Shown piece after piece: positions 20,926 through 48,500 of a DNA stretch of 64,000 nucleotides (the first letter of the stretch is position 1; each line of letters opens with the position of its first letter). This stretch comes from Clitopilus passeckerianus. Its lineage: Eukaryota; Basidiomycota; Agaricomycetes; Agaricales; Entolomataceae. The stretch lies in the NCBI GenBank assembly GCA_944990035.1, contig CALYLX010000160.1:124001-188000 (forward strand). Direction: 5' to 3'. The translations under genes were made by a program, and so were the position numbers. The notes below the pieces were generated by a model. That model made no database searches. It worked only from the letters and a program-made list of their open reading frames with translations, and had not been told where the DNA came from.

Positions 20926-21082
20926 TGCATCGTTCCTGTAGCTGTAGGTGTTTTCCGGACCTCTGCAAATACAAGTTGCATTCTACCCTTATATATAAGT
21001 TGGACAAAGAATGCACCAATGCTATACAACATTTACATAGACGATGGAATATGTACAGGTTATTATTGAATGGGAGATGTCC

Positions 21083-25104: not shown

Positions 25105-25486
25105 ACATGTACTTCTATATGGATCCTTATGGCTTTTGTACAAATTTCTCCTTGCTGAAACGGCGGAAGCGGTCGCACAAGGCCCGGGCGTAGCAGAGGA
25201 GGCTGTGCTGGCCCTGCGCACGTTCAAAGCAACCAGCATGACCCACAAACCTCTGCTCACTTTGAGCATCTCACCACTCAGGCTGTTGAAAGCTTGGTGC
25301 TTCAACTCCAGCAGGCCCATCTTGTTGTCTTCTCTGGTTAAATTGGGGAGGGCAAATGCCGTGACACATGTCTTAACGACTTCCAGATCCGTTCTAGGTA
25401 AGGTCCATCGTTAGCTTGACAACTCGAACACTCGCACTAACGTTTCTCTCTCCGACACTGGCAGCTTTCTTTCTGTATGCAACGCC

Positions 25487-26336
25487 TTGCTCTTTAGCAT
25501 GACAAGAGACCTCCCGGTTCTATCATGTCCTCCAACCTCAAGCAACACACCAACCTGCTTCACCGCCTCCGACCTGCAATGGGTGGTGGAGGTTGATCTC
25601 CTCCAGGTTTTGGAGGGCTTCGTGGCGTGTCTAGACACCGAGGACCAAATTTCTGACACTGCGTTTATCTGCCTGTGGAAGGGGACTCAATTTGGAGGGG
25701 CCTGTGAAAGGACACGAAGCATCGCAAGTGTACTTGAAGGTTAGTTGCTCGCTTGCCTATTTTCATTAGGATACAAGGTTGACTTTGGGGAAACAGGCCA
25801 GAGCCAGACGCAACGTCAGGAGTGCGGCATCTCAATTGACCTGGGTGGTGAAGACCCCAAACCCTCCTGTTTCGGGTACGAACGCACGCTCACGAGGGAA
25901 CAAGGTTCGAACGAGTGCAACGAGTGAGTCCAGACACCCCGCCGCTGACTGGTCCGTATAATTTATGCACCATTTCAGCTGCTGGAAAGGGACCTTCTCC
26001 ATCACTCCCGCCGGCGAGTCCAATGACACCCACGGTCCACTTCCTCTCACAGCGTTTTGCGCTGCCTCAGGACCTGACTGGGACCCCGTTTGTGGCACGG
26101 GACTTGGGCTTGCCAGCTCCCTCTTCGACACCGAAAACAGTAGCAACGGCACCTCCAAGTCACCAGAACCGACTGCGCTGGGATCATGTGCGCTTAACAC
26201 GGCTGCCCTACTTACCACAGGACGAGCCAACTGCCAGCCTGGGGACAAGCAAGCAGGCCGTACTACCCACAGCAGGGCCTACGCCTGTACCCCACGTGCC
26301 GCCTCAGGTCCTCCATCTGCAGCTCCTCTTAGTTAG
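25487..26336 (+). CDS. Hypothetical multi-exon gene between the dioxygenase pseudogene and P2 transposase
   Basis: Three blocks splice in phase: 25487-25739 (donor GTTAGT), 25770-25923 (donor GTGAGT) and 25979-26336. They give a Ser/Thr/Pro-rich protein with WVVEVDLLQVLEGFVACLD, KVDFGETGQSQTQRQECG and CWKGTFSITPAGESND segments. A further exon upstream (around 25197-25390, ALRTFKATSMTHKPLL...) probably belongs to it, but the junction could not be placed. A different frame of the last exon stays open to 26472, so the 3' end is not certain. I do not recognise it. Its position between a dioxygenase and a transposase in the same orientation suggests transposon cargo. Confidence 0.4.
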
Positions 26337-26472
26337 ACCCACGTGGAGCCTGGAGATCCAGCGAGATCCCATTCGGGAACAAGGCGTTCCACAGCGGGTC
26401 TACAAACCCCGTGGATACCTTCCGAAGCGTGCCTTGTGCAGGCGCGGTGTGCACTTCCAAGCTGTGGCGTAA

Positions 26473-27429
26473 TTGGGGTTGGAGGCGCCTAAAGATAGGC
26501 CCTGCCGCTTCGCCTCTATTCTTTTTATACCTGTGGCCACCACCTTAGTAGCTTCACAACGTACTACTGTTATGCACAGAACTTGTGTTCTGTCTTTTTA
26601 TTCAAACGCATGCTTAATATAGAACCAGTTTACGTTTTCGCTCCCAAGCTACCTTTCTGTCGTTGCGTACTTGTAGAAAGGGCACGGACTTTGTGAACGG
26701 CAGTAGCGAGTAATTTGATAAGTGACTTAACTTTTTTTTTAAACTTTTTCTACTTTTCACGCTCAAAAGTAGGAAAAGTACCAAAGGGTAATTTCCGGTT
26801 TGCTGATGTACACTCCGTTGCAAAGCCATTTGAAATCAAACAATGCTCCACGAGGATCAGAGGTTCCAAATTCGGCTTCAGGAAGGCGGGCTCACCAAGC
26901 CTCAAACTTTGACTTAAGAATTGATTCACCACCCTCACGACACGAACGCTTCCGTCTTCAAAGCTTCACGGTCGAACTTGCCAAACCACGTTTCTAGCCC
27001 GTTCCTCTTTCCAAGCGAGGCATTATAGGAACGGCCAGCCAGCAACTCGAACTTTTCGTGGTTGCTCTTGCACAACCTGCCCGGAGATCCACCGACCATG
27101 GCCTCTCGGTTAATGTTCCAGGCGGCACAGAGCTTCTTACAGATCCTGCCAGTTGATACTATTTGTATCAGGCTTCTGCCGCAGCTAGCGTGACCGTGAT
27201 CATGATAAACCCTAGCCTGCTTGTCCGCAAGTTGTCTAAGCCTGAGACCTCCGAGTCCGGCCACTTGCATAAACCACCGGCAACTTATCGTCCAGTCGGC
27301 CACTCATCCGCTGCGTCTCAAATGAGCCAAGTTCAAGTTCAACCACTGTCCACAGCATTCTTCCAGACCGACTCTTAGTAAAGTACTTTGAGGCGGGCAC
27401 TTCTCACCACCTTTCTCCTAAGGCCTACC
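26473..27429. other. Intergenic region before the P2 transposase
   Basis: Short frames only. It should contain the promoter of the transposase starting at 27430. A T-rich run near 26731-26750 is the only notable compositional feature. Confidence 0.4.
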
Positions 27430-28302
27430 ATGAACATCAACGACGACCTATCCTGCATTTGTGGTAAACGCTTTCAGCAATCAAATGCAGCCGCTCATCA
27501 TCGACGTTCATGCTCTCGAGGAAAGCGGAAGATATCAAGCGTTCTTGAACAAGCAAGGGAGGCAAGGCACCAAAAGCAGGCTAAAAGGCAGAAGATCTCT
27601 TCAACTTCTGTTCTGGAGCCTGTGGCCGTAGCTGGATCGAGTTTGCCCCAATCAGTGGGACCCAGCCGCGTCATTCAGGCAGAGATGGCACTCCAGGGGA
27701 CAATGTCTAGAAGTGGTTCATCGACATCCTCCTTCGTTGACAATACCCAACCCGTAAGTAATGAAATGTTCTATAGTGACCACAGCATTCAAATTTTGAC
27801 AGCCAACCTCTCGCGTTGATTCCACGCCGGCTGATAGCAACCTTGAAGACCTCCCCATTGCTCAACGGAGACCTCGAAGGTGCATACGGGAACCCGCCCG
27901 TTTGAAAGATTATCAACCGCATCCTCCTTCACCACTCCCCCTGCGATACACAAACTCAGGAGACCCACCACAGCCAAACTCTACCAGCACCGTTCCAGCC
28001 CCAAATTTAGGCAGCGCAGAATCGCCTACTGTCCGCTTGCAATCGTCAAGTAACGAATTCGGACTCTTTCGGCGCTATGTGATGGCAAAGGTTGCTGCTG
28101 GTTCGCCGCACGAGTCGTGTCCAAAGGAGGTTGAAGAGAATTTATCCGACATCCAGGTCGCACCCTCGTTTCTGTCAAATAATGGCCCTGTATCCCTCGC
28201 ACCTTATCCGAATCTGAGCTCGTTTTTACTTGGCGAGTGGTATTGGAATGGTAGTATCCAGAAGTCAAAACAGGACTTCGAGGGCTTAACCTCGTTACTC
28301 CA
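27430..28302 (+). pseudogene. Plavaka-class transposase P2, 5' part, interrupted by element P1
   Basis: ATG at 27430 gives MNINDDLSCICGKRFQQ with a Cys/His finger (C-x-C...H-H...C), the sort of zinc finger found at the N-terminus of Plavaka-type transposases. A GTAAGT...CAG intron (about 27752-27800) joins to PTSRVDSTPADSNLEDLPIA, then a Pro-rich linker, then FGLFRRYVMAKVAAG and YPNLSSFLLGEWYWNGSIQK. These are N-terminal blocks I associate with this family in Agaricomycetes. The frame reaches ...GLTSLL at 28300, where element P1 begins after the CA at 28301-28302. The rest of the gene is at 45579-49553, 17.3 kb away. If P1 were removed with one CA, the joined codon would be CAG and the frame would continue. 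Confidence 0.75.
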
Positions 28303-28318
28303 CATCAGCAAATACTGG
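28301..28318. repeat. Left target duplication (CA) and terminal inverted repeat of P1
   Basis: CA (28301-28302) is followed by CATCAGCAAATACTGG. The reverse complement of the right end reads CATCAGCAAACACTGG, a single difference. Confidence 0.85.
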
Positions 28319-28357
28319 GCCAATTATAGGTCTCTATGCGTCTCTATATAGCGGCAC

Positions 28358-28916
28358 ATAGTGCCCTAGCACCCCATAGTGCCATAGTGAAGGGTATCTT
28401 CTATATAGAACAGCCTGTTCTATAGAGAGCAGCATAGAAATTTGCCCTTTTGTAGAGAATTTCCATATCATAGAGCAATTCTATATTATAGAGAATGTGG
28501 GTGACATAGAGAAGTTCCATTTCATAGAAAAATCTACCACCATAGAGACCTTCATTTCCATAGACTTGTTCATCCCATAGAAAATTCCACTGCCATAGAG
28601 ACTTTCATTGCTATAGATACTATGTTCATCCCATAGAGTACCTCAATGCCATAGCTAATTTCACTTCTATAGAGTGGGCTGTTTACATAGGTCATCCCAC
28701 TCCCATAGAAATCACGAATACCATAAATTGCCCGTTATCCATAGTTGGCTTTGCTTTCATAGCACTTCTGCATGCTATAGAGGGCCTAGATCTCATAGAA
28801 GTCATTGTCATTATAGCAAGCACTGTTCTGCATAGAAGGACTATCTCCCATAGTAATACTTCATCCATAGATACAAGATAATTCATAGCTAGAGTAGAAC
28901 AAATAGACCATATAGA
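28358..28916 (+). repeat. 18-bp phased CATAG array (left subterminal repeats of P1)
   Basis: (C/T)ATAG recurs about thirty times. From 28470 the positions of its first A run 470, 488, 506, 524, 542, 560, 577, 595, 613, 633, 651, 669, 687, 705, 723 (CATAA), 741, 759, 777, 795, 813, 832, 850, 867, 885 and 903. The step is therefore 18 bp with only rare slips of 1-2. The intervening 13 bp vary, with a weak preference for TTC in the middle, consistent with an old 18-bp minisatellite of which only CATAG has been kept. No coding frame explains it. Confidence 0.9.
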
Positions 28917-29079
28917 AAAAGTCCGTTTGATGTGGGCAGTATGCCACAGCACCCCTCCGAGCCACCATACGTAACCTAATCATCATCAGAGAACCCAAGA
29001 AGGCCAACGGCGCCTGTCCAATCGCGCCTTGGTTTCTCCTTTTTGCCAGCCAGGTGGCGCTCCCTAAACCAAACAACTG

Positions 29080-32000
29080 TTAACTAGTATCCAAATGAAA
29101 TGATACCACGCACCATCCTTCGGCAGCCCATTCCCTGCGACGACGATTAAAGGCAGCTCTATGAGCGGGACGTTTCCATATTGCATCGATTGCCTCAGAG
29201 ATAGTGTCGTAGAGTTCCGTATATTCAGTCGATCGGAAATCGTGATCAACGTAAGCTCCTTCCCCGACAACGTAGCCATCGAAGACGTTTCGTATCTGGG
29301 AAAAGAGTGTTAAGCAGAAAGTTGTGCCGGCGAGTAAGCGATGAACTTACCACAGTCGCAACAAAGATGATCATAGAAATAGGAATTTCCTCACGAAGCC
29401 TGGTCGCATAAGATGCTGCAAGCGAATGTTTGCCTTCATAAAAGGCAGTGATAATTGTTTCCTTCAGAGCGGGATGAGCAAAGTTTTTACGAATACCCTA
29501 GACAAACATATGTATCAGCCGCCTTCAAGAATAGTGACATAGGAAGTGGCGTACATTCTCATCATCTTCGTCGAGATGGGCAAATTGCAAGCCCTCGCAG
29601 ATAGCCTCTGTACGTTCCAAAATAACGGATTGCAACCCTTTCTGGTTGCCTGCAAGTATCCTGTGCCGGTCACGTTGGTTCTCGTCGTCGTCGTCTTCAC
29701 TGTCGGCCGCAAGAGCTTCACCAGGTGAGAGAATGCGAAGATAGTATTTCTCCATCTGGAGGCGACACTTGCCCTTCACAAACCCTCGGTAGGTTGAGCT
29801 TTCGTTCCATACCTAACGTGACGTTATCGATAGCGAAACATGGGTGTTCCAAGATCACTTACCAAGGTATCCATATCTTCCGTGTGGCCGTGATCTAAGG
29901 GAGAACGCGCATCAAGGAGGGGCATAGCTTGGATAGACTCAAACATACCTTCGATCTCCAGATTGACACCTCGTTCCTCAGCGACCCCGATCGCGGTAGA
30001 AACCATCTCGTTTGCAAGGTCGGTGCTGGGTGATCTCACTGGAAACGGGTTTACACAAGCAATCTGCCAACGCATCATCACCTTCGCATCCACAAGCACA
30101 GCCTTTGTTCTGGGTTCGTAGAACGATAGAAGTTGAGGCCGAGGTTTCTTCCTTTTGTTAACGTCGTTGCTGTTCCGCGTATGCCTTTGACGATCGCGGA
30201 TTTTCTTGCCAGGGCGTAGGGCTTTTGCAACCGTTCCGGATGGTGTCAAATCTTCATCTTCTGGTTCGTGGGCGTCATCGTCTTCTTCTTGTGCGAGCTC
30301 TGCTTCAAGGTGCTCGTGTGAGATGTCCGGAGCCCTAATCCCAGATGCATCGGTTGTCAACACCGAGCCAATGGCAGGCGGTGGTGGCATGCGCGACTGC
30401 TGTCGGTAAGTGGCAAGGACGTCGGATTCTTGCATCTGCGCAGGGGTTGGTAGTCTGTGTTGCGACTGCTGCCGAAAAACATTTGGAAGCCCGTTAGAAA
30501 GGAACCATTAGCAACTAGTGATCTGAACACACCGGCTTGCCATGGCGGCTAGACACCTCCTTCTCATGGGTTTCCATGGCCCTTGCAACTGTAGTTATGG
30601 TGTTAGCGACAGAAACTCGGGGGGGAATGTATGCTTACTCACTATCTGCTTTCTGGGACCGAAGCTGGCTGATCTTCTCTTTGATCGCCCGTATCTTCTG
30701 CGGACCTTTGCTTGTGGTCGGCTAGAGTAAAAAGTATGTAAATGGTTTGTGAACAGATAACGCCCTGACCAAACCGACCTTCTCCTCAAGCCTTTTTAGC
30801 TCCTTTTGGCCTGCTGAAGTTAACTTCTGATGAAAACAGCAAGAACGGTTGCAACTCACTATCGCGTATACACTGGGCTATACCAAGATGCTGGAGCTGA
30901 AGAGTTGTGAAGACATAATCCTCTTCAGGCTCCTCGCCCCCAGTGCCGTGATCCTCATCTTCACCGACTGGGTTGCCTCGATTGTTATTATCCATGTCCT
31001 TCTCTGTTGCTAACTTTCATTGAACAGGGTGTTGCAATAGACCAGGAAGTACTCTTACCTCTGCCCTTTCCCTTGTCCTTTACACTCGTGGCGCCGTCAC
31101 GATTGGACTGTTGGCCGGTGAGCTGTTCATCTATGGTAGGCTTCCTTTAGACGACTGCCTTGAATGAGAGGAGAGGAGGCGCTTACGAGTGCCTTTCCTT
31201 CTACTCCCGGAACCTGACGCCTTGATCCTCCGTGGATGAGAAGTTTTGGTCTTCTTGACGGGAGGTAAGTCTTCTTCATTCTCATTGCTGGGTTGAACTC
31301 GTGAACGCTTGGGTTGTGCAGAGCTGGTAGGTTTACGTTTCTCTAGAAACAAAACATTAGTTTAGAAATGTCATTAAAACCGGCAAGCTTGCACCATTAT
31401 TGGGTTCGAGACCAGAATGGCTTCGATCTTCAAAATGACTTGACGATGCGCTACCGAGACCTATTGACATTCACGTATAGAAGAGGTCAGTTATAGTAAG
31501 GAAAGAACGAATACCTGAGTGTTACTTACCTTGAGTAGGCGCCTGTAAGATCTTGTTCTTGTGAATTTTCTGATGCGCTACAGAAAGTAGACCGTGAGTC
31601 CAAAAACGGCCGTTATCTATAGAACTCAATGCGCACCTTGCGATTTAGTCAGACTTTGCTTTTCTCTTGTTCTCTCAGGCTCTGATTTGAGCTTTTCCAC
31701 CCCACCTAAATGAGAATCTTCCTCATTTTCGTCATCCGTCTCCGATTCAGAGTTTGATCCGGCGGGGGGCATGTATTCTTCCTCGGTGCCATTTGCTTCA
31801 AATGGGTCTTCGCCTTCAAAGGCACCACTGCCTAGCGATCGATGGGACATCCTGGGATGCTTATGCGCAGGCTTGCTTGGTGGAGCTAGATGCAGGGACC
31901 AGTCAGTTGAGCGAATTGAAATACCAGAGGAATGTGTTAAGCGTACACTGTGGACCATTATTGGGCTCATCATCTGGTTCAAGGTTTCTTGGAACGTTGT

Positions 32001-33156
32001 TGCTGGCCTGCTGAGTGCGTCGAGGAGAACCTAGTAGTGATAAGAGGATACAAGTCAGATGGCTGTAAACGATAAAGGTGCACGAAGCATGAAGCTTACC
32101 AATCATTTCCTCGTCGGAATCTGGCACGCTCGCGGCGGTACCCTGAGGTGAAGTGGCCACTATGCTGCGCTGATCATCCTTCCTGGTGACTCCTTGCTTT
32201 CTGTTTGCCGCTTGAAGGTCAATAAACGGTCCTGCATTGGGTGGATTACTCTTGGTGGTTACGTGCCCTTGGGAGCTTAGGGATTTTCATTCTCACCTGA
32301 CAATTCTTTTCCAACATTTCCTGGGCTGGCGACTGGGCTGGCGACTGGAGAGGGAGCTCCATCCCGCAAGGCAGATAAATGCTTGGGAGCTTCTCAGAGA
32401 TCAGCGAAATAAACGTACATCTGGAAGCAATCTCAGCATATGTTGGCTGGCGCAGTTCTGGTGTTTTGGGCCTCGTATCTTTCTCGGATTCTTCGACCGC
32501 ACCTGTGGCTGCAACATCCCTCAGCATTCAGCCTTTTGGAAGCTTTACTGATGCAAAAGAAACTCACTGTTGACTTTGAACTTAGCCACGTTCGTAGGGG
32601 CAGGTGGGAAGACGAGGCCAAACCCCGCTGTACGATCATTTGCGATGATTAGCTTAGGGCCAGGGGGGTCTGTTTTGCCAACGCTGGAGCTTCTAGCATT
32701 CGCTAACTCTGTGCCGCTGTTGGCTTTCCTGGCAGCCGTGGCCTTTGTTTTATCAGCACCTTTACCTCCACCGGTGTTCTCAACGAGCTTGGCAGCTTTC
32801 TGTGATGGGGGCGTTAGGACTTTCGAAGCGATGATTGTCAGAACATGCACCTTCGATGTATGTTTCTTTGTAACCACGGGCGGAGCCATGTCATTCTCGG
32901 GGAGGTTGCTGGGAACTGCAGTCAAGGCCCCACGCTTTCGCTTCGTGGCTTTGGTTCCAGCCTCGAGCTTATCGGCGCATTTTTCTAACTGGTCGGTATG
33001 GCCACCTTTGCCAGCAGTCTGGCGCTTGGGCCGCCCACCAGGAGATTCTAATGGTGACGTGGCACCAGTTTGAGATGCAACGAGAGCCTTGGATAGAACT
33101 ACAGACATACCGTGAACTCCTGAATTCTCGACGTCACTAGCAGGCTGGGCAGGCAT
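29080..33156 (-). CDS. Acidic, multi-exon DUF6532-like protein (P1 cargo)
   Basis: The gene starts at ATG 33156 (MPAQPASDVENSG) and has about ten short exons. The N-terminal two thirds are disordered: Lys/Pro/Ala-rich, then strongly acidic with nuclear-localisation-like basic clusters (for example RKGTRKR, KRKKPRP). The C-terminal part is globular: YYLRILSPGEALAADSEDDDD, HPALKETIITAFYEGKHSLA, ATRLREEIPISMIIFVATVI, then IDAIWKRPAHRAAFNRRRRE, ending at TAA 29080. The pattern of a charged linker, a 'HP...I..AF..G' helix and a '(I/V)P..MI.FVATVI' helix resembles the fungal DUF6532 domain as I remember it. Function unknown; nuclear location is inferred from the basic clusters. No stop or frame break was found in the exons checked, but the middle exon borders are approximate. 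Confidence 0.5.
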
Positions 33157-33391
33157 GGTAAGCAATAGGCAGGTGAGTTACTTTCACAAATATTTGATAT
33201 GTTTCTCTACTGAGACAATGCGGGGACAAGCAGATGTCTGTTCGTGTTTCCTAGACTATTTGAAGCTCCCAGAAAGGTTTCAGGTCCGTTCAACTTTGAC
33301 GGCATGACTTTCAAATTTCAGGGCCCAAATAGAATAGATTGTCATGAAGATTTGAGTGACACTACTACAGGACGACATTACTAATTTAAAA

Positions 33392-34068
33392 CTAAGTTGA
33401 TTGGACCGTGGGCTGGGCTTTGAATCGTAATCCCTGTGTTGAGTAAGAAACGGCAAGAGAAGCAAGGTTCGAAGTGAACTCACCGGTAGGAGACTGCTGA
33501 GAGGGGAAGTTCCGGCGCGGTCGCAGGCGCTGGTATTCCAAAAGGCTCAGGGAAACGACCCCCATGCTGTGTCTTTCCAAACGGAGAGTCATGCGGCCCA
33601 TCGCCTCGTCGGCCTTGTGGACACGTTCCCGAGCAGCTAGGCATGTTCTCAGGATGGATCGCAGCTGTCGCTCTGCCAGCTCTCTGTGTCCTCGAGCTGC
33701 AATCTGTTCTAGGCGAATACGTTGTAGCGCCTGAAAGGTTTCCTCGTCGATGTTGAGGTCTGGTGACTGTAGGAGGGTAGCTAGTTAACTGCTGTATTCA
33801 AATCCAAGAGCGGTTTCCATACCCAAAATAGCATGTGTCTCCAATCTCTATCAGCATGCTCGTCGTTCAGAGTAGTCGTACTTGAATTGGATCCTTCCGG
33901 TTGTTCTTGTGTGGATGTCTGCAAGGCGTCGATGTCACCATTTGCCAGTGTGTCAACATTTGTCTCGAGCTGGGCCTGGGCTGCTGGGTAGGATGGGAGT
34001 CCGAAAATTTCTGCTTGACGCTCCTCTTCTGAGTCTGATACGTGTGTTGTTGTTGATCTGGCGGGCAT
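33392..34068 (-). CDS. Small coiled-coil protein (P1 cargo)
   Basis: Exon 1 starts at 34068 (MPARSTTTHVSDSEEERQAE) and ends at RHMLFW before a GTATGG...CAG intron. Exon 2 encodes SPDLNIDEETFQALQRIRLE and then a long Arg/Glu/Leu-rich helix (EQIAARGHRELAERQLRSI) of coiled-coil type. A GTGAGT...CAG intron leads to a short last exon ending near 33392. About 160 residues. I do not recognise it. Its place between the dioxygenase and the DUF6532-like gene, on the same strand, makes it part of the cargo block. Confidence 0.5.
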
Positions 34069-34334
34069 GCCTATATGACTTGGACAAGGACCAGAGAGTC
34101 GTTACGTTCAACTTGGAACTGCATTAGCACCAAATTGAAATACGGATGCCCTTGATTTGACGACTGTGGGAAAGGCAGTGTGATCTCACTAGATTCAAAG
34201 TTCATTCAAAGCAATTCCACATGCATTAGGTGCCGCATTAGATATATCACGACAGAAGAAAATAATGGTATGGAATATTGGTAATCTGAACATACGGATA
34301 AGCAATGACGAAAGTCCAGAGATGAGATATGTAG

Positions 34335-35918
34335 CTAATTCCACTTGACGTCATCCAAAGTAGAAATCAGGCCTAACCCTGCCTCCCATCGCAACGGCTT
34401 CAAGAGCTGTAGCCTCCGATATTCGGTCGGGTTCTCGAACTGAAGTCCAACTTCCGTCGAAAATCCTGCATCCACATATTGGAATAAGCCGCCGGCGCAG
34501 AATTGTGTGAAAGAGAGTCGTATATCCCCTGCTTGAACAGGAATATTTGAGTGCGTTAGAGTGGCTGACGGCACCAGGATGGTGGATCCATGAGGGAATT
34601 CAATCACGAGCTTGAGCTCCCATAGCACGATGTGTCCCCCTTTGGTCGAATCAAAACGTCCAAGAGCCGTGATGGCACAAAAGCCAAAAGGGACATTCAT
34701 CACATCGCGGTGCTTATAGCACCAAACATTTTCCGCAAAATTAAATGCGGCACAGGGGAAAACGGAGAGGTCGCCAAAGATCCTGGTCTTCTTCAAGTCA
34801 GGAAAGTGGTTCCAGAGCTTGTCGAGACGCTCAGCGTAGTACCTGTAGACGTTTGGTTGCCAGAGCTGGAAGACACCTGGTGAAGCAGTTAAAATGGGAT
34901 ACCCGGAGACGAAAAAGGTACTTACTGCTAGCATAAGACGCCAGTCTCCGAATGCTTGAATTGCGTAGAATGCCCCAGAGCATATCTGTGTAAGGATCCG
35001 TCTCTAGAAACCGGGGTTCTTGATGCCCAATTCCGTACGTTACTCCAATGTTGAGGGCCGGAAAACCGCCTCTTCGGTGAGTCTCGTCTTTCTTATTGAA
35101 ATGGGTGGAACGGGTAGCTTCTAGCATCACCTCTAGAGCCTCGTTGGTGGCGTCTCGGTAGGTGGATTCGTTGGGCATCCCGCATAGGGTGATGCAGATT
35201 TTGCCGTTTGAGTCGAGAATTGGACGGGGTTCGCTTGATGTTTGCTTTCAGTACGCAAGGATGAGCCCCGGATTAGATAAATCACTCACATCCCGTCCCA
35301 TCTTTCTAATCGAAAATCCGGGTGGCACTTGAGAAAATGGTCCAAGGATTTGTATTCTTTGCGAGCTTCGCCATCAGGAGCGGCAGGTTTGGACTTGTAG
35401 GCGCCTTTGAGCGCAGGCATATCGTTGGCGGTAAAATCGGAAGCCACTTCGGATGGCTCTGATAGTTGGACGTATTCTGCTCGAGTCCTACTGGAGGCTC
35501 TGCGGGTGAGTGGTGTCTTCTGAGAGGCCTGGTTTCGTCGGGCCCGGGAACGCTTAGCGTTTCGCCAGCTCTGGCGCGCACTTGCAGGCGGTGGAGATGA
35601 GGGATTGGCAGTATTGGAAGCAGCGCACGGAGGAGTGGAAGGGGTAGCCGCAGCTAGAGGAGCCAATCGATCGGTCTTTGTTGAAGAAGAGGTCGATCGT
35701 TCTACGATGGAGCTATCGATAGCGGCAGGTGCTAGGTTCAAAGCCGAGGCGTTCTCGAGGTTGTGCTTGCGTTTCTGTGAGCTAGGCCGGAGCTTTCCGA
35801 GGCCTAAATCCTCCTCAATGGTTAATGGTTCGTCCTCATAGGCCACCTGCAGCAAATCTCCTAGGTTCAGAGGGTCAACGGCAAATATGGCCCGAAGGCC
35901 GTTGAGAAATGAAGCCAT
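34335..35918 (-). CDS. TET/JBP-like 2OG-Fe(II) dioxygenase, intact (P1 cargo)
   Basis: Three exons (35918-35290, 35233-34926, 34876-34335) join through GTGAGT...AAG and GTAAGT...CAG introns and close exactly at 492 residues. Residues 1-190 are Pro/Ser/Ala-rich with basic clusters (NAKRSRARRNQ), likely disordered and nuclear. The catalytic part has YKHRDVMNV with the metal ligands His368 and Asp370, the strand LVIEFPHGSTILVPSATLTH with the distal ligand His421, and Arg432 in GDIRLSF placed to hold 2-oxoglutarate. From memory this matches the expanded Agaricomycete TET/JBP-like family, reported by Iyer et al. (PNAS 2014) to travel with DNA transposons. Family members oxidise 5-methylcytosine or thymine in DNA; activity here is inferred. 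No lesion was found. Confidence 0.75.
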
Positions 35919-36747
35919 GGATGCTGAGTGCTTGTTAGTCCGCTGAACAGGGTTTGAAAGTAGGCAATAGAAACTTACGTTGTGATGAGTGAAGTCTAAA
36001 GGGTGGATCCAGCGCTAATTGGTTTTGTGACGATTCGAATGGGAGTCGAGGGTTTGAACGTGGCAGATAGCCCAGAACGGAAAACGCGAGTGTTTATCGT
36101 CCGCTTTGATTGCTAACACCATAGTGGTAGGCCTGAAACCTTCCTGTGACTGCAAGTCAGCAGCCATATGGCTCCAGGGCGCGTATCAGAGAAGAAAAAC
36201 TACAACCTCCAGGAGCGTTATTTACAATGCGAACAAAGGCTACTCTACCCCGGATCCTGGGGGGGAATCCGTCTGTGTAGAGCTCCTTTGTTCACAGGGT
36301 AAATAGCGCCCATGGAGTTGAGTCCAGTAGTAGAATTTAATGCATTAGCTGAATCTTCTGAACGTGTCTTCAGGGGAGAATAGCAGGAAGGTGTGCGTGG
36401 CGCAGTGTGCTTACCTTTCTATTCTCACGATCTTTCATCAACCGCCGTTGAATTCGAATATTGACGACGCGTCTGACGCGTGCAATGAATAGAATCAAAC
36501 ACGCCCGGCGTGTTTCCGCTAGCTTATCTGACTGTGATCCTTGGAGCCCAAATTCTGGACGATCCTGGCGGATATACGAAGCTCCTACGTGTAATTTATT
36601 TCCAACGCATTTCATTAACACAATATATAACAACTGACAACTTGAATGGAGATGAAAGACGTCATTAAGAAATGTAAGTACAAAAGCGGTCTATATACCG
36701 AGCAGAGTCGGGGCACAGATGGGGATCAGAGAGGGTGATTTCGACTT

Positions 36748-39700
36748 TCAAGCCTCCAGATTGAGCTGGTTGAGGGCGTAGTAGAGCTCTTTCTCAAAAA
36801 AGGAGTTTAACCACACCTCTCGGCTGTAGGTTAGAATGTTTGATCTGGTTAGGCACCGGTTTGCAACAGCTCCAAAGCGAGGAACGAGGTCCACATGGGA
36901 GCGTAGGCTTGAAAGGAGGACAATGTCTCCCACATTTGAGCCATCCGCCCGCTGTGCACGTTTCAGAAGGTACATTGAGGTCGACGGCTCAGGAAAAGGC
37001 CCTGAGCGCCTCGAAAACCTTTGATTTAGCTGTGGCACTATGTCAAATCGCTGGACATAGGCTAGGAACCTGTCCGGCAGGTTGACTAGTCCAGGTGTGG
37101 GCACAATTCGAAAGATGAGCCGGGTTTGAACAACCTGGTGACCTAGAAGAGAAAAGGGGTCTGATTCTGATTTGGATAATTAAGAGGAATGTATTCACGC
37201 ACCACAAAGGCCAGAGCTTGGCCAGATCTTCTCTGGGTCGACATTCAGTATTGCAGCATCGTATCGACCCGCGGGGTCAGCGTCGTTTGGATCCGGAGGC
37301 GAGGCGTTGATTGTGCATGCCGGTAATGTTGAATAAGGCTTGTAATATGACTTCCCTTGAATGCGTACGCTTTTCCAGACCTCGATCAAAGAGAACGGAA
37401 GGCTGATTGGTTCTGGGACGGCATGGCGCCTCCCACCGACCTCTAATCTGGCCCCCAACCGGATGCGAGTGACGTACTCAGCCAGAGCTGGAATGAGGTC
37501 AGGGAGCTGGAATGTTTCGGATACTGCCTGGGGTTTGGTTCGTCTAATTGCGGGATCCCGGGATAAATGAAAGGCTATAGAATGATTCCGTGTGGTAAAC
37601 GTGCGGAGTGGTCGAAGGATATTCGATTCCTCCAATACGGAGTCTCGGAGATTGGAGGCGGAAAGCGCAAAGTAATCCAAACTGGACCCGGTTGGATCTC
37701 GCACATTAGCTTGTCGTCCTTCCGTCTCTCCGGGTTCCGAGTCCCCAAGTTGATGGCTGGACGGAGCATCCCAAAGAGAATCGAGGCTTTCTGTCGCCTC
37801 TCCCTTCAAGGTAGTTCCCAATTCAAAGCGGTCGCATTTATCAAGTCGGTCGAGATAGCGGCATATCTGAGCTTCGTACCCGGTATTATTCGATGCGCGA
37901 GCTGGATCTTTGACAGCACGAATGTGTGCATTCTCAGTAACCTCCGCGGTCCACTGCATTGGCACACCATTCTCCCGAATGTTTGCCACCACGCTCTGCA
38001 TGAATTCCAGTTTAGGAATATACCAATTGTCGATCATTTTGTTCTTCTTCCCTCGCCGCCCTCCATTTTCGGTAATCGAATCTTTATGCTCATGGAATGT
38101 GTCCAGTGCTTCTGAGATCCTGTCAAGGAGCGCTTCGCTTATCTCGGGAGCCTGCCCAAGATAGCGAAAATCCAAGAGGGATCGGACGGCGATTATGAAG
38201 TCTTTGGGCGCGGCATCGGCGATAATCGGTATGATGTACCTCTGCATTTCACGATGCTCTCGACAAGTTACTTGTTTGAGCTTGGAGATGCCTTCTTGGA
38301 ACTGTCGGAAGCCGGTATGTGGGTGCAGCACCGAGAAACGAAAATCAATCTCTGCGGCACCCACCACGTTGATGCACCATCTAGCATCGTGGTCCCACCA
38401 CATCTTGTGCCAATGATGCAGTGGTTCTGGCGTGAGGAATATCGACGGCTCTGCCAATGGCCAGTCGCGCCAAAACGGTTCATGTACGCCGTTCAGCCTG
38501 TATTTCTGAACCGCATTGATTCGATAGGCCTCGATGTCGTCCCAAGGGTCTGCCTCTTCTCGAAGTGCGTCCAGTTGCTCCAGGGTCTTCTCAGCCGTCC
38601 GCGGCGTGTGGCGGAATGGGTCGCCGAAGGTCTTATGGGAGGCCAAGGTAACAGATGACGTCTTTCCTGCTACTCCTGCTATTAATGCGGACTCTGGGGT
38701 GTCGACCACGCATGAAGCAATTGGAGTGAAGCAATATCGGGAAAATCCTTGCGGATCGCTCATCATTTTTCCGAACTCTGCAGCTTGCTTAAGAGGTTTC
38801 AAGATAAAGTCAAGGCACTCATGAAAGAGTCGATTTGCTAGTAAGCCGGTGATGTCCTTATTAGGGTGTATAAAAGTGGGGATTGGTAGTAGGCCGAGTA
38901 AGAGATACGCATTATTCGATGACTTTGAGCGATACTCTTTTGCCAGATTTGCCAGCGAGATGAAGAGGGGGTAAGCATTGCGACCTCCTGTCATAACAGA
39001 GATGTTTGTTTTGTCCGTTGAGAGAATCGTGCCCAACAGGGTAGCTCCTGAGGGAAGTCTCTCCTGCAGGCTCAGTATTAGTTTCTCGGAAAGATAGATG
39101 TTTGTCTGAGCTACGTACCTGCATTTCCCATGCTCTGTCGCCAGATAACCATTCTGAGTATATTCGCTGAGTCTTCTCGACTGTAGCGTACAGCCGATAT
39201 GGCTCCAGCCCTATGTGGTTCTCGATATTTGGCCGTTGGAGTATGTCTTGCAGACACTCTAGAGGGTCGCGGTAGTACAAGGCCACAGGTTTCTTAGTCG
39301 GAAATGAGGGCCGTGGCGGCCAGGCAACGGTCTTCCAGCGAGGGCCAGAGGGTAATATTTCAGCGCGACTCTGCAGAGCTTTTGCAGTTCGAAACGATAA
39401 ATTCAATGATTTGATCTACGAAATAGACAGTGTGAGCATTAATGGGCTAGCTATCGGTCATTGTAGGGTTGAACGCACCATATCAAGCTCAAGAAACTCC
39501 TGAGTGTCAGCAAGGCTGAGTTTAGACTTGAGTAGAAAACTCGCAAGCTGCCACTCCTCCTTCGATTGAAATGGGTAGTACGGAAGCTCGGATCTTTCAC
39601 CTTCATGTAGATCGGTATTGAAGACATCCATGAACGTTTGGCCATCGCCATATGTTAGAGAGGGCTTCGGGAACGGCTCCACAAAACGGTCGAATTCGTC

Positions 39701-40141
39701 GGTCTGGAGTTGAGTTTCTGTCGGTGAAGAAGATTGATAATTGAGATCTGAAGCTTCCGTACTAGAACGTGAGCGTGGATCGGTATCTCGATCGACCTCC
39801 ATATTCGCGTCACCGTAATCTGGAGTACCCCCTCTGCTGGTAGGCGCCACCTCGCTGTTGTCGTCGTCAACGGTCATTTGGTTGTTTTCCTGTTCATTCT
39901 CATTGGCGACCGTCCATCGACCTTCGTTGATGCTCTGATTGGTATGAATTGGCATTTGTGGTTGGTTTTCCGCATCAGATCCTTCACGAAGATCCTCTAT
40001 GGCCGCATTTCGTGACGACTGAGAGCCTTTATCGCGTTCTCGTTGAGCCTTACAATTGGAATGAGGTTGATTCATGTGTTGCCGTAGGTGTGTTTCCTTC
40101 TCAAATCGCGCGCCACAGAACATGCACCAAATTCCTGGCAT
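36748..40141 (-). CDS. Plavaka-class transposase of element P1, intact, 1071 residues
   Basis: Four exons (40141-39479, 39415-39119, 39063-37203, 37142-36748) close exactly at 1072 codons. The N-terminus MPGIWCMFCGARFEKE has a C2H2 finger (Cys6, Cys9, His22, His27), probably for binding element DNA. After an acidic linker come YYPFQSKEEWQLASFLL, PVALYYRDPLECLQDIL, RIYSEWLSGDRAWEMQ, GTILSTDKTNISVMTGGRN, FWRDWPLAEPSIFLTPEPLH, HKMWWDHDARWCINVVGAAE and a C-terminal RFLAYVQRFDIVP block. From memory these are hallmark stretches of Plavaka transposases, a CACTA/EnSpm-related group. The acidic residues of STDKT and WWDHD are candidates for the RNase H-like catalytic site. No stops or frame shifts were found, so P1 could be autonomous. 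An upstream in-frame start at 40183 is possible but less likely. Confidence 0.85.
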
Positions 40142-40598
40142 TGTTTCAAGTAAAGGTACAACAAAGATTGTGCTAGTCCACAAATGAAGAGAAGGGAGTT
40201 TAGGATCGGTTCCAGAATTTGACTCGGCGGTATGGGTTTGAAAGCGTGTGAACGCGCCTTGGAGGCTGAGCGCCGATCCTCACCACCACCAACCCAAACT
40301 TGAACTTGATCATTGTGATGTCGCCACCGCTCAGCCTTGCACTCTCAAGAGTACGAATGCGGATTGCTCACGCTTTCCGGCCATTTGCCAGCAACTCTTG
40401 GGGATTGTGCCGCCAATTTCATTCTGGCATGGCGACTCTTCTTTGAAACCCGTTAAAAGCTCCCTCGTACATGTTCACCCTCGCTTTTGACGTCTATACC
40501 TCATCTGGAGCAACTTCTATCGCACCGTTCGAATACGGAGTTGAATTCCCTTTCAACCTAATCAAACTGAAGGCTCCACCCGAAACCATTCGCAATGC

Positions 40599-43500
40599 AT
40601 GGTCACCGCTTCCCATATTCCTCGGCGTATGAGCGCAAAATGAAGAAGTGTAGTTCGGAATCCTTTCACCTGAGGAAATCGTGAGTTGCCATTTGTGTAT
40701 AGCATGGTGCACAATTACTCAGCTTCCATCTATCTAAAGCCTACTCAGCGTTCAGATAGAACATCCCAAGGTGACGGACGAGGCTACACACAAGCCCAAG
40801 ATTGGAGGACTCATAGACCCTCATATGAGAACCGTAAGCCGGAACTCAAGGTGTTAGACTTGCGATGAAAGGATATCGGAATGGCGGGGTCATTTCGGTC
40901 GCATTGAACGGCGTGCGAGCCAGTTTTCAATCGAAGTGAGTTGTTTTGGTCCTGTCGTCGAATTCATTAGTGACCATGGCCTTGTTTTTGCTTCCAGGTT
41001 TCATCATTAAAGTAAAGAAAACTCTGGAGAGTGCACCTGTGAATTTCAGGAAGCTGAAAGCAGATATCGTGAGTAGCGTCTCTCCTTTTTACTTGTTTCG
41101 CTTCCCCACACCCCGTTGTTCTGGGCTCTCTCCGTTATGGACTCGGAGAACCCTAACCTCGCACCACATTTGTTTTCTCGACAAGGGCGTTCAGCTAGCC
41201 GGGGTGGAGGATTGTATGGCACACGTTTTCAATCGCTTGAGCACGCAAAGACATGTGGCATGTTGTGCTCGGTGGAAGGGCCCGCCACGCACAGCTGTTA
41301 CGCAGCCTTGGCGTGTGCGCTCAGGCACTATTGAACTCGATCCTTCAACAAATCATGCATTATCCCTTTGATCACCACTGATTGTATTTCCTTAGCATTG
41401 AATTTTGGGCCACATGTAGATTCCGGCTTCGCAGACAAATTTCGCCACACCAAACCCCGAAAGCTCGCATGAGCATGATCTGGTTGTATTGCGAAACGAG
41501 AACCACCTGCGAGCACAACGACCCCAAAGAAGAAGGTGCTGAAGGTGAGGTCGAGGAGCTCAAAAAGGGTCACGGTGGATGCGGCCATATACAGCCTCAG
41601 ATCCGTAAAGAAGGACTGAAGTTGTTTTTGCAACACAGGTTTGTAGACCTGCCCTGGGATCCAACGTTACTTACTGGTCCGTTTCAGGAGGTCAAACCAA
41701 TGCAGCCTGATAAGTGTATGATTACACCTTCGGAAGTCGGCGCTGTCTTCAAGAAGATGTCGGATTTTGATCTGCATCTGCTCGGTCTCTCGGAGGAGGA
41801 GGCTGCTCGCCAAGAGTGGATGATCCTCAATGTCATGCCCGTGCCTCCTCCACCTATTTGTCCCAGTATTGCTGTCGACGGCGGTGCCATGTGCAGCAAG
41901 GATAGCTTGACGTACAAGTCTGGTGATGTCATCAAAACATTTGCTAATGTACGGAGATGCGAACAACTTGAAGTTGCTCCTGCCCACGTCATCTCAGAGT
42001 TTGAGCAATTGCTTCAGGTCAGTCGGTTGACGCGCTAGCTCTTTATATGATATTAACATGCTTTTCGCCAGTTCCACGTTGCTAATTACATGGATAATGA
42101 TATTGCTGGCATTCCTCAAGCTCTTCAGAAATCCGGTTTGCCTGTGAAGACAATTTGTGCTCAGCTGAAGGGCAAGGAAGGATGTCTTCGAGGCAATTTG
42201 ATGGGCAAGTGTGTCGACTTCTCGGCACGTCCTGCCATTACTGGTGACCCCAATCTGGAACTGGACAAGGTCAGTGTACCAAGAAGCATTGCCATGAATC
42301 TGACGTTCCCCGAGCGTTGTGAGTATCCATGCCTTGACGATATCAGCACTTGATCTGACGTATCCTATCCAGTTACTCCGTATAACATCGTCTACCTGCA
42401 AGAGCTGGTGCGGAATGGACCGACAGCATACTCTCGTGCTTGCTATGTCATTTGTGATGCTGGTGAACAGATATATTTGAGGTCCAACAAGTGTGCGGAT
42501 GCATTCCTGGAGTACGTTTGGGTTGTCGACAGGCATCTGAAAAACAGAGAGTAAGTACTACTAAATCTGGTATTCGGGGACGACAGGCTGATGAAGTCCT
42601 TAGCTTCGTGCTGTTCAATCGCCAGCCCTCCCTACACAAGATGAGTATGGCTGATACCGCACTCAAGTAAGTTTTTCTTATTGTATCTACTCGATTGACT
42701 TAATTTGTAATTCAGCCTTCCGTCTGAATCTCTGTTACCCCTCCCTACAATGCCGATTTTGATGGTGACGAAATGAACATGCGGTATGTCCGTTCAAATA
42801 TTCATCAACATACGGTTCCCTAATTTCATTACAGCGTTCCCCAATGTGAAGAGACTCGTGCTGAGCTAAGCCAGATAGCATGGGTTGCGAAACAGGTTGG
42901 TCTGTCGACTTGCTGGAGTTTTCACCTTCTAATCCAACAATTATAGATCATCTCCCCGCAGGCCAACAAGCCGGTTATGGTTATCGTGCAAGACACCCTC
43001 TGTGGCATTCGCAAACTCACCCTTGCAACCTCACCCTTCGCAACACCTTCCTTGACTGGAATCAAGTTCAGAATATCCTCCTATGGGTCCTGGAATGGGA
43101 TGGCACAATACCCACACCTGCTATCATCAAGCCCAAACTGTTCTGGACCGGCAAACAGATATTGAGCATGGCCATTCCTCGATGCATCAAGATCCACCGC
43201 GCACCTGAGCCAAAGTCATCTAGCCCAGTGTTTAATGGCGGCGTTCTCATCGGGAATGGCGAACTTATCTTCGACATCGTCGAGAAGAAGACCGTCGGAG
43301 CCTCGCAAGGAGGTCTTATCCATGTCGTCTTCCGCGAGGAGGGTCCGGAAGTCACACGTGGGCTCTTCACTGGACCCCAACAAGTAGTCAACTATTGGCT
43401 GTTCCACAACGGTTTCTCGATCGGAATCGGTGACACCATTGCGGATCCAAAAACCATTGCCTACATCACCGAGACAAACGCAGAGAAGAAGGCTAACGTT

Positions 43501-45240
43501 GCACAAATCATCAAGGATGCCAGTCACGATAGGTTGAAAGCCGCCCCTGGTATGACCATTCGAGAGTCATTCGAGTCTCTAGCCGAGCGTCAGCTCAACT
43601 TGGCTCATGAGACATCCGGTCAATGCGCACAGAGGCGTTTGACGGAGGACAACAACGTGAGGCAGATGGTGGTCGCAGGATTCAAGGGTTCATTCGTCAA
43701 CATCTCACAGAAGTCTGTCTGTGCCGGCCAACAATCCGTGGAAGGTCGTCGTATTCCCTTCGGCTTCAAGCATCGATCATTACCCCACTTCACAAAGGAC
43801 GACTTCAGCCCGGAGGCGTGCGGATTCGTCGAGAACTCTTACCTGAGAGGCTTGACCCCGCAGGAATTTTTCTTCCACTCCATGGCTGGTCGTGAAGGTT
43901 TAATCGATACCGCTGCAAGACAGCCGAGACTGGTTATATTCAACGTCGTCTCATGAAGGCTTTAGAAGATGTGCAAGTCTGTTACGATGGCACTGTCCGG
44001 AACTCCCTTGGCGACCTCATTCAATTTGTAATGGTGAAGACGGTATGGACGGCGCTTTCATCGAGAAACAGACAATCAATTCGTTTGGCCTCAGTAACAA
44101 GCAATTCGAACACGATTATCGAGTCGATTTCATGGTGAAGGGAGGTTATATGGATGGAGCCCTTCAAGTTGGACTCAAAGAGCTCTCAGTAGAGCTCCAA
44201 GCCAAATTGGATGAAGAATATGCAAGGCTTGTCGAGGATAGACGCCTCCTTCGCAGTTTCATCTTCCCTCACGCCCCTACCAACATTCCCGACTATCTCC
44301 CTGTCAATCTCCATCGTATCATCCAGAACGCGACCCAGATTTTCCATATCAACAGGCGGAAAATCAGCGACCTCAAACCACGTATCTTGTGGATGCTGTT
44401 CACGCTCTTGGTCAATGATTGATAGTTGTACGAGGTAACGACTCCCTCAGCAGAGAAGCCCAGGAGAACGCTACCTTGAATTTCCGCACGAACCTTCGTT
44501 CGACGTTTGCTTCTCGCCATGTCCGTTTAATTGGGTTCTTGGCGAAGTTGAAGCCAAGTTCAACCCCCTTGCCATACGCAACATCACTGTTCTTCGACAG
44601 GACAGGAGGACCGACATCTCCTACATACTCCCGGACCTCACCAGCACTCAACCTCACGTCACCAAACTATTCGCCAACAAGTCCTTGTTATTCACCTACG
44701 TCGCCATCATTCTTTCCTACGTCGCCGAGATGCAGCCCACAATCCCTTTCGTTCAGTCCAACATCTCCCAGGTATTCCCCCACCAACCCTTCATTCAGCC
44801 TGGCTTCCCCTCGGTACTCGCCGACTTGTAAGCACCCTGCCTCTTTACAAAGGTTCTGGATACTAATATCTTTTCAGCTCCTGAAATGGACGGCATCAAT
44901 CTCACGGCTGCCATGATCATTGACAGTGTTGATTTCCGCCGCACTTACTCCAACAGCTGCATTGAGATCTTCAGCATTCTGGGCATTGAAGCCGCTCATG
45001 CTGCCATTTTGAAGGAACTTTGTGGCGTCGTCGAGTTCGACGGTTCCTATGTCAATTACCGCCATCCCTCTCCTTTGTGACCTCATGACCCATTGTGGAA
45101 ACCTTATAGCTATCCCCCAACAGAGCCAACACTGGCGCCCTCATAGTGTGTATGCTCTCATGAGGTGTTCGTTTGAGGAGACGGTGGAGATTTTGATGGA
45201 GGCTGATGTGGTTGGCCGGAAGCCTGAGGATGGCTACTAA
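40599..45240 (+). pseudogene. RPB1: Captured, decayed copy of the RNA polymerase II largest subunit gene
   Basis: Blocks collinear with RPB1 run from FPYSSAYERK and FGILSPEEI (40610-40680) through [51 protein letters not shown] and the catalytic motif YNADFDGDEMNM (about 42755). They continue into a long open stretch (42880-43956) with [20 protein letters not shown] and [18 protein letters not shown]. Several introns with GT-AG borders persist, so this is a genomic copy and not a retrocopy. Frame breaks and stops occur at many points (for example near 40645, 40850, 42720 and 43930). After about 44560 the order is scrambled: ten CTD heptads come before a segment ([12 protein letters not shown]...[11 protein letters not shown]) that lies ahead of the CTD in normal RPB1, and the stretch between is missing. 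It cannot encode a working subunit. Confidence 0.9.
44614..44826 (+). repeat. Ten CTD-type heptads in the RPB1 copy
   Basis: Ten consecutive 21-bp units encode variants of TSPxYSP in unbroken register (for example [21 protein letters not shown]). This is the heptad of the RNA polymerase II C-terminal domain. They lie upstream of a core segment, not at the end of the gene. Confidence 0.9.
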
Positions 45241-45355
45241 CAATAGTTGGCGTAGACCTGACACCTCTATGGCGTGTCTATAGAAAGAGTAATGTCAATA
45301 GGTGTTTATGCATTCACTACGTAGGGACCCTTGCTCTAGAAATTTAATGTTCATA

Positions 45356-45556
45356 CTATGTTCACCTATGTGAAGTCTAATTGCTAGAGCAAATCTATGG
45401 CCATCTATGAGTACTCTATGCTCATCTCACTAATTTATGAGGACTTTCATATCTATACAAAGCTATAGGATACAGTCAACACTATGCTACACTATAGATT
45501 GATCAAATCTCTATGAGGTTCTATGGCTCTGACTGAAACATCTATGGGCTCTATGG
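45356..45556 (+). repeat. CTATG array, mostly ~10-bp spaced (right subterminal repeats of P1)
   Basis: CTAT(G/A) occurs at 45356, 366, 395, 405, 416, 453, 463, 482, 492, 511, 521, 542 and 551 (weaker forms at 377, 384 and 435), so steps are near 10 or 19. It is the reverse complement of the CATAG motif of the left array, which gives P1 inverted subterminal repeats. Confidence 0.8.
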
Positions 45557-45562
45557 CCAGAA

Positions 45563-45580
45563 CCAGTGTTTGCTGATGCA
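45563..45580. repeat. Right terminal inverted repeat of P1 and target duplication (CA)
   Basis: CCAGTGTTTGCTGATG (45563-45578) is the inverted partner of 28303-28318 and is followed by CA (45579-45580). Confidence 0.85.
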
Positions 45581-48500
45581 GAGCCAAGACTTCAGTCTTG
45601 ACGATGTCAGGAACGTTCCCTGGAGCAAGATAGATGAGACTCTTGGAGGGCCTGCACTGGATGGGGCCGGTGACGAGGCCTCTCGGGTTATGGGCCCGGA
45701 TTGGGTAAAGACCCAAGTCACCATCCAGGTCCCTTTTCACCATCGCTTGGGACGCGACATTACACCAGGCCCTAGGCCTTTCGTTGTTGGAGACTTCCAT
45801 CACCGAAGTCTTGTGTCTATCATCCGCGAGAAGGTCTCTGGGCCGGACAGTCGGCTTTTTCACTTCGATCCTTACGAGCTCTTCTGGCAACCACCTAGTG
45901 GCAGTTCACCACAGCGTGTTTATGGGGAATTCTACACCTCTCCTGCCTTTCTCAAGGCACATGAAGATCTCCAACTTTCCCCTCCAGAGACGGACTGTTC
46001 ACTTCAAAGAGTGGTTGTCGGGTTGATGTTCGCTTCTGACGAGACTCACTTGACGCAGTTCGGCGAGACGAAACTGTGGCCTTTGTACATGTATTTTGGA
46101 AACGAATCAAAGTATAGGCGGTGTAAGCCGACGGAACATCTGTGTCACCACGTTGGTTACTTCACAAAGGTGAGATGATTTGCAGCTGTCCGACCGTCGC
46201 TCTGACGCTCAAGTCTCTTTAGGTACCTGATAAGATCAAAGATTTCATCACCTTGCACACCGGTTCCAAGGGATTCAACTCAAGCCTGATTGCCCATTGC
46301 GTTCGAGAAGCGCTGCATGCTCAGTGGGGTATTCTCCTTGACGAAGAGTTTGTCCATGCATACTTGCACGGCATTGTGGTCACCTGCTGTGATGGAATCA
46401 AACGGCGCTTTTATCCCAGGATTTTCACGTATAGCGCGGACTACAAGGAAAAGTAAGTGTTCATGCTTGCCTTTCTGGATTCGAAATAAACATAGAGACA
46501 CATCCCAGGACTATTCTTGCCGGAATTCGTAACCTGGGAAATTGCCCATGCCCTCGGTGCCTTATACCGCTCAAAGAGGTACAAAACCTTGGGACGGAAG
46601 AAGATCGACGAAGAAGATCTGAGCAGGCAAGAGTTGATAATGACGAGTATCGCACACTGGTCGCAGCTGCAAGAAAGAATCTCTACAAGAAAAATTATGC
46701 GCTTGATGGAGACTACGTGGATGGCCTCCTAAAGGCACAATCGCTTACACCGGTCGAAGTAGGTCTCGTTCAGAATGACATCATATCGGAACTACGCTCA
46801 CATACCAGAAGAATGGCTTCTCATCTAGATTATCCCACCTTGGGGTAGACCTTTTCTCGATGTTTGTGATTGATCAGATGCATGAAATCGAATCTGGAAA
46901 CTGGAAGTCGCTCTTCATGCACCTCCTTCGGATTCTACATTGCCATAGTTCAAAAGTTCTTATACACGAGGTTGATGGCAGGTGAATTCTCATGCCTCTG
47001 TTGAGTCCTGTTGGTTATGGTACTAATGCCACATATTCAGGTTTCGCCAAGTGCCTACGTTTGGTAAAGACACTATCAGAAAGTTTCGGAAAAACGTAAC
47101 AGATATGAAGAATCTTGCTGCTCGTGACTGGGAAGACATGCTTCAGGTTTGCCTCCTGGTTGTACCTTCTACAAGTCACTCAACCTCTTTAGTGCGCTAT
47201 TCCTGTTTTCGACGGCCTGCTTGAAGAACCCCACAATTCGTGCATACTTGACCTACTTTTCCTTCTGGCTTATTGGCATGGCCTCGCGAAGCTGCGCATT
47301 CACACAGAAACCACCCTTGAGCTGCTTGACCAGCTTACGTCAGAACTCGGAGAACAGTTTCGTTACTTCAAGGCCACAACGTGTGCGGCGTTCAAAACTC
47401 AGGAGCTCCCAAGAGAGGCTGGCGCACGGTACCGAAGGCTTGCGGCAATATCTCAAAAGAAAGGCCAATTATCACAGAGCATAGGCGACGCGCCCCAAGC
47501 TCCTGTTGACAAATCCAAACCCCAGACTGTTGCTGCCGCTTCCGCCAACTCCGAAAAGGTTTCTGTGTCAAGAAACTACAAGTCTTTCAACCTTAACACA
47601 TACAAATTTCACGCCTTCGGTGACTATGTGCAGACGATTCGGACGTTTGGAACAACAGACTCCTACTCAACGGAATCGGTGGGCAGCAATCCATCGGTGC
47701 CATAATGATCAAGGTGACTAATGAGCGCACGTCCCCGTTATTTTAGGGCGAGTTGGAACATCGAAATCTGAAATCAAGATACAAGAGGACCAGCAAGAAG
47801 AACTTCGTCAAGCAGATCACTCAGATCGAGAGGCGTCAGGCTCGAATCCGGCAGATTCGACAAAGCTTGAATCGTCATGCGAGTGTGACTGTCAAAAACA
47901 TTACTCCTCCTTTGCCTTCGTCGCAGCAGAAACCTGTTTCCTCTCCAGAGCTTCGCTATGTCCTTGGGAAGTCGCAGAATGACGGGGTGCTTTTTTCTGA
48001 ATTTCTTCATAATGCCGCCTGCGACCCATCCGTAAAGGTAAGCACTCAATTCCAGACCTTCTTGAGACGGGACTAAGAGTTTGTTCCCTGGCTCTAGAAC
48101 TTTCTTCCTGACCTCAAAGCTCACCTACGTCCGCGTGCCCAAGTTTTGTTTAAGAATAGGAATCAGGAACAAGGTTGGAGCCTTGTGCGATGTCTTCACT
48201 CCCTATGTCTAACCGATGCATATACCACCAGATATGACTATCTTCTTCCAGCAGGATAAGCTATACAGGCATCGCATCCTTCGAGTAAACTATACCACCT
48301 ATGACGTACGACGTGACCAGGATATAATCAATCCAAACACATCGCACCGCAACATCATGATGGTTCGTAAAGCCACCGACCAACCACAACCCGCATCAGA
48401 CAGGTCGGATGTGCACCCTTTCCTGTACGCACGGGTGCTAGGTATCTTCCACGTAAATGTCATTCTTGGCGGTGGCGGATCTGACCGTCAAGGCCAAAGA

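Follow-up and report, generated by a model that had tools for sequence, protein, structure and literature searches.

A Plavaka-class transposon of Clitopilus passeckerianus with defined ends, a TET/JBP-like dioxygenase gene and a decayed RPB1 copy

Positions 28301-45580 of a 64,000-nucleotide stretch of Clitopilus passeckerianus DNA (the window; C157:124001-188000 of a 64.8-Mb assembly of 160 contigs) raised the question of whether a transposon of this size can be delimited to the base, whether it has moved and whether the genes it carries make it a new kind of mobile package. The interval had been predicted to be a Plavaka-class element lodged in a host gene and containing a transposase, a TET/JBP-like dioxygenase, two further cargo genes and a captured copy of the polymerase gene RPB1. 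The element has moved, and it is very probably a recently mobile cut-and-paste DNA transposon of the PlavakaB kind.

Borders, copies and empty sites

The element is bounded by 16-bp inverted repeats, CATCAGCAAATACTGG and CCAGTGTTTGCTGATG, which differ by one mismatch, and the dinucleotide CA stands on both sides of it. By itself, the inverted pair would not convince as border evidence. It ranked 23rd by length among 35 inverted pairs of at least 16 nucleotides in the region, and two matches to the end were also obtained in 15 of 100 shuffles when up to three mismatches were allowed. The borders were fixed because three further copies in the assembly start and stop at the same bases and have unrelated flanks. 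These copies, two on C11 (C11a and C11b; 188338-205243, minus strand, and 206448-223333, plus strand) and one on C79 (445182-470220, minus strand), align from base 1 to base 17276 of the window element, the aligned pieces being 98.5 to 99.6% identical. All four copies have CATCA..TGATG termini, and similarity among them ends at the two element ends. They stand in four unrelated contexts and are flanked by the dinucleotides CA, TA, TC and TA. The predicted borders were thus upheld to the base, the claimed interval taking in both CA copies, as were the inverted ends and the CA duplication.

When up to two mismatches were allowed, the left end had 88 matches in the assembly, compared with 30 for a reversed control pattern. 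There were 31 matches with at most one mismatch, 8 of which were the ends of the four copies; a further 19 had the variant end CATCAGCAAATCCTGG and probably belong, judging from their sequence, to related Plavaka families in the same genome. The search for further copies that the original prediction had proposed therefore yielded three, with the same ends and unrelated flanks. None of the outcomes that had been named as counting against the prediction was found (an interval shared without an empty site, copies with other ends, or ends lying within a longer unrelated repeat), with the ends of more distant Plavaka copies left untraced.

An empty site carrying a single copy of the duplication was detected for all four insertions, in agreement with the predicted mobility. 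The window site minus the element and one CA corresponded to C8:352786-353685 over 900 of 900 bases, without gaps and at 99.3% identity. For the C79 site, gapless matches were found in C8 (98.1%) and C125 (95.8%). The C11a site had many matches resembling long terminal repeats (LTRs), and all four that were compared were gapless over the junction, with query bases from 222-225 on; the C11b site had at least 40 gag-like copies, and in the two compared the junction was gapless, with a 2-base gap elsewhere. Two of the three insertion sites outside the window lie in LTR or gag-like retroelement sequence, as judged by repeat pattern and by eye, and the third lies in sequence with 16 genome matches.

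Removal of the element and one CA restored an open frame across the window site, as predicted. This frame is not a host gene, which led us to reject that part of the prediction; it encodes another Plavaka transposase (PF18759, 2.3e-18). The insertion is therefore nested, and the restored frame is real yet belongs to a mobile element. Beside the interrupted transposase there is a dioxygenase-like stretch (window 24716-24916, plus strand, and C8:356622-356822; 51% identity over 67 residues), and the surrounding Plavaka element seems from its sequence to carry such a gene as well. C8 shares window positions 14932-28302 and 45579-50233 at 99.6 to 99.7%, with a further collinear piece at 3033-3765. 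On the right, this similarity ends beside another TGATG, GATTTTCCTGATG at 50220-50233, where the surrounding element may have its right end; no convincing inverted pair was found to supply the left partner. Because similarity stops at this point, C8 may represent either the sister haplotype of the site or a second copy of the element around it, and it is an empty site either way. Two host RPB1 loci, on C112 and C120, are 96.3% alike over 9.7 kb, which suggests that the assembly holds two haplotypes.

Transposase, dioxygenase and further cargo

A four-exon model of the transposase, with splice sites picked by eye and by script, was free of stops over 1071 residues, so that the intact transposase of the prediction was recovered in the window copy. 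PF18759 matched the main exon at 3.5e-68, which bears out assignment to the Plavaka class, a name reportedly given by Iyer and co-workers. An N-terminal zinc-finger-like stretch was also present, and 316 protein relatives were detected.

CATAG repeats were counted in the terminal 600 bp on the left and 350 bp on the right and were compared with mononucleotide shuffles. The repeats, which had gone unmentioned in the original prediction, face inward at both ends, with only 2 (left) and 0 (right) in the opposite direction. Subterminal arrays are known to be bound by the transposase in CACTA elements, and by analogy the arrangement has the layout expected of putative transposase binding arrays.

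The predicted dioxygenase also proved to be intact, with a stop-free three-exon model of 492 residues. Its gene lies downstream of the transposase on the same strand and is followed by a gene for a 189-residue protein and then by a DUF6532 gene. No Pfam family scored above the cut-off for the dioxygenase, and sequence searches of the PDB gave chance-level matches only. Among 7995 candidates scored, 58 protein relatives were found; the named ones are from mushroom-forming fungi, with Mycena among the best. In an alignment of 40 of these 58, the first H was conserved in 40, D in 38, the second H in 39 and R in 36, and HxE occurred in none. The window protein reads HRD and HSN, and the iron triad HxD...H is present. 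A structural model of the relative P0004 (predicted local distance difference test, pLDDT, 88.6) matched CcTET best, followed by NgTET, human TET2 and CMD1, all above FTO, and the enzyme is accordingly predicted to have the TET/JBP fold. The match to CcTET is one of fold only: identity in the structural alignment was about 13%, and no sequence match to CcTET was obtained at E <=10 with either a single sequence or a 40-sequence profile.

Twelve further loci in the genome matched the catalytic exon. Five of them have a Plavaka transposase match at a distance of 1.2 to 5.2 kb, and two are neighbours of the interrupted transposase and of its counterpart on C8. Within less than 15 kb at C110:126877-141295 lie relatives of the transposase (66%) and the dioxygenase (41%) and, about 11 kb further along, one of the DUF6532 gene (31%); by sequence, this group is possibly a distant relative of the element.

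Both further cargo genes of the prediction were recovered. One is a DUF6532 gene (PF20149, 3.5e-27, on a hand-spliced 421-residue model), whose protein had no relatives at E 0.001 among 7991 candidates scored, though Pfam matches. For the small gene, no family scored above the cut-off.

Table 1. Positions of the element, its ends and its genes in the window
Feature	Position	Strand	Remarks
Transposon	28303-45578		17,276 bp; Plavaka-class DNA transposon with defined ends
Left target site duplication	28301..28302	.	CA; single CA at empty site C8:352786-353685
Right target site duplication	45579..45580	.	CA
Left 16-bp terminal inverted repeat	28303..28318	+	CATCAGCAAATACTGG; same terminal bases in 4/4 copies
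Right 16-bp terminal inverted repeat	45563..45578	-	CCAGTGTTTGCTGATG
Left subterminal repeat zone	28303..28902	+	CATAG 22 times; shuffle mean 0.65, maximum of 2000 shuffles 5
Right subterminal repeat zone	45229..45578	-	CTATG (CATAG on the minus strand) 11 times; shuffle mean 0.40, maximum of 2000 shuffles 4
DUF6532 cargo gene	29083..30507	-	Approximate extent of modelled 3' exons; 5' end may lie upstream
Small cargo gene	33392..34068	-	189-residue hand-spliced model
TET/JBP-like dioxygenase	34335..35918	-	Exons 35918-35290, 35233-34926, 34876-34335; 492 residues; HRD motif
Plavaka transposase	36748..40141	-	Exons 40141-39479, 39415-39119, 39063-37203, 37142-36748; 1071 residues; PF18759, PF20722
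Captured RPB1 gene copy	40366..45222	+	Rearranged, internally deleted, frameshifted

The RPB1 copy and alternative explanations

The RPB1 copy is 77 to 87% identical in DNA to the host RPB1 gene region, almost all of which it covers in the alignment. The alignment includes stretches between the host open frames (introns by inference), which indicated uptake as genomic DNA. Capture, as predicted, was therefore upheld, and what was captured is now a rearranged and frameshifted remnant rather than a working polymerase gene. That the copy serves as functional cargo, for example as a decoy or an altered polymerase subunit, is very improbable, although an open frame of 363 residues covering Rpb1 domains 3-4 persists and the NADFDGDEMN stretch is kept. 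Compared with the long host frame, the copy shows one insertion (14 bases), deletions (three of 1 base, one of 3 bases and one of 28 bases) and a stop, and a further stop is present in the zinc-binding region. In the 3' part, pieces are missing or in swapped order, with host positions 5787-6543 and 6884-7342 of L031 lost. Of five lesion positions checked, four are shared by all four copies and the fifth differs among them. Because of these lesions and the lost and swapped pieces, working cargo was rejected as the leading view, and the copy is best read as a decayed passenger shared by all four copies.

The substitution pattern was the sole hint of a past role for RPB1 beyond that of a passenger. 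Comparison of the element copy with the host over 529 codons gave a synonymous divergence (dS) of 0.196, a nonsynonymous divergence (dN) of 0.048 and a ratio of 0.243, which is below 1 and favors functional cargo; the two host copies differ by a dS of 0.107 and a dN of 0.004 (5 nonsynonymous changes), and their ratio of 0.037 tells against it. If the copy has been unconstrained since it was broken, only about one-fifth of its divergence fits an unconstrained phase; the remaining changes would have accumulated under constraint, whether in the element or, before capture, in a different donor lineage.

The other alternatives concern mobility and the substrate of the enzyme. The four copies could have been made by segmental duplication of a fixed locus, with the element as a dead relic. 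The C11 copies lie head to head, 1,204 bp apart, and have a 322-bp deletion in the RPB1 part in common, as such duplication might leave them, and a relic would fit the finding of an uninterrupted transposase in one copy only. This explanation is scarcely credible and was rejected, as it is largely refuted by the differing flanks: similarity stops at both ends, and 2-bp duplications and empty sites accompany every insertion. Moreover, the C11 copies lie in different parts of retroelement sequence. Their arrangement, with duplications of TA and TC, looks like a local hop. In the C79 copy, the alignments flanking a 7.3-kb insert overlap by 10 bp, which may be the target duplication of that insert. 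As for the enzyme, its fold, the conservation of HxD...H...R and the repeated occurrence of such genes beside Plavaka transposases argue for a DNA-oxidising role, most likely on methylated bases (5-methylcytosine, possibly 6-methyladenine) of the element's own DNA, which would counter silencing; action on protein or RNA instead is unlikely.

Several observations weigh against a recently mobile PlavakaB element with an anti-silencing enzyme. Movement was read from copies and empty sites by sequence comparison. The transposase is uninterrupted in the window copy only; that of C11a has a 1-base deletion, that of C11b has 16 lesion positions, and that of C79 carries the 7.3-kb insert in exon 3, in a copy that also has about 500 bp of other sequence near its left end. 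The dioxygenase of the C79 copy contains one stop, with the gene open in the window copy and both C11 copies. The structure modelled was that of P0004, which is 48% identical over 66% of the query, rather than that of the window protein, and 5 of the 12 further dioxygenase loci, including the nearest relative (79%, C126:720593), have no transposase match nearby. The C(2)C motif of the wider clade was not clearly seen by eye in a consensus of 20 sequences; PlavakaB is described as having C(2)C and H(3-4)H motifs between the second D and the last E (in passages of PMC12730594).

From what is known of the family, the DDE-type transposase would bind the inward CATAG arrays next to both ends, pair and cut the ends and join them to a staggered 2-bp cut, and copy number would rise when an already replicated donor moves. 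The dioxygenase would act on the element's methylated DNA, and the DUF6532 protein would have an accessory role. RPB1 would have been taken up as genomic DNA, would have decayed and would then have been multiplied as passenger DNA. A more extended history is tentative. It would place the element in a PlavakaB branch whose TET/JBP enzyme belongs to none of the published types PU, AG and PE (it reads HxD and has no sequence match to CcTET) and is transmitted together with Plavaka transposases as a module against silencing; during most of its divergence from the host gene, the RPB1 passenger would have been under constraint, perhaps because it served the element as working cargo, with decay and multiplication coming later.

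Comparison with known systems

The package is not new as such. TET-bearing Plavaka elements, all of them PlavakaB, were in print in December 2025, with examples from Agaricus bisporus and Gymnopus confluens, and the relevant passages give CATCA..TGATG ends and 2- to 3-bp duplications (Kojima 2025, PMC12730594). Within this published kind, the present element is set apart by a dioxygenase of the HxD form, by its DUF6532 cargo and by the remnant of RPB1 that it captured. With its borders, duplications and empty sites, the element offers a clean case of a mobile element travelling together with an enzyme that could, in principle, remove methylation from DNA. Should DNA prove to be the substrate of the HxD enzyme, the diversity of transposon-borne demethylases would exceed the three published types, and the near-identical copies permit a direct test of whether the element keeps itself unmethylated. 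The RPB1 remnant indicates that the capture and multiplication of several kilobases of host gene sequence are within the reach of a Plavaka element; among the papers listed on RPB1 capture, DUF6532 and transduplication, no comparable case was found.

The closest likeness is to the TET-bearing PlavakaB elements, which have the same Plavaka transposase, the same ends, a duplication of matching length and a TET/JBP-like gene inside. The present element differs in its HxD dioxygenase, RPB1 remnant and DUF6532 gene, the latter two being unmentioned in the passages on those elements (PMC12730594). Plavaka is given there among the carriers of the PE type of TET/JBP, whose hallmark is HxE; the window protein reads HRD, and E was found at this position in none of the 40 aligned relatives. 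On sequence, the dioxygenase may constitute a fourth type or be a variant of one of the others. Kyakuja and Zisupton, with AG-type TET (CcTET relatives), are likewise mushroom DNA transposons with an HxD TET-like enzyme and the CcTET fold, but their transposase class is unrelated and the present dioxygenase lacks a sequence-level match to CcTET. CACTA/EnSpm elements share a related transposase class (according to passages of PMC12730594), subterminal repeat arrays and CA..TG ends; here the ends are CATCA rather than CACTA and the duplication is 2 bp rather than 3 bp, so that the combination of CAC..GTG ends and a 3-bp duplication is absent. Finally, gene-capturing transposons, such as plant Pack-type elements, CACTA elements with transduplication and the Helitrons of Pleurotus (as described in part of PMC4289320), also carry and multiply a copy of a host gene, whereas here the carrier is a Plavaka element and the copy is of nearly the whole RPB1 gene.
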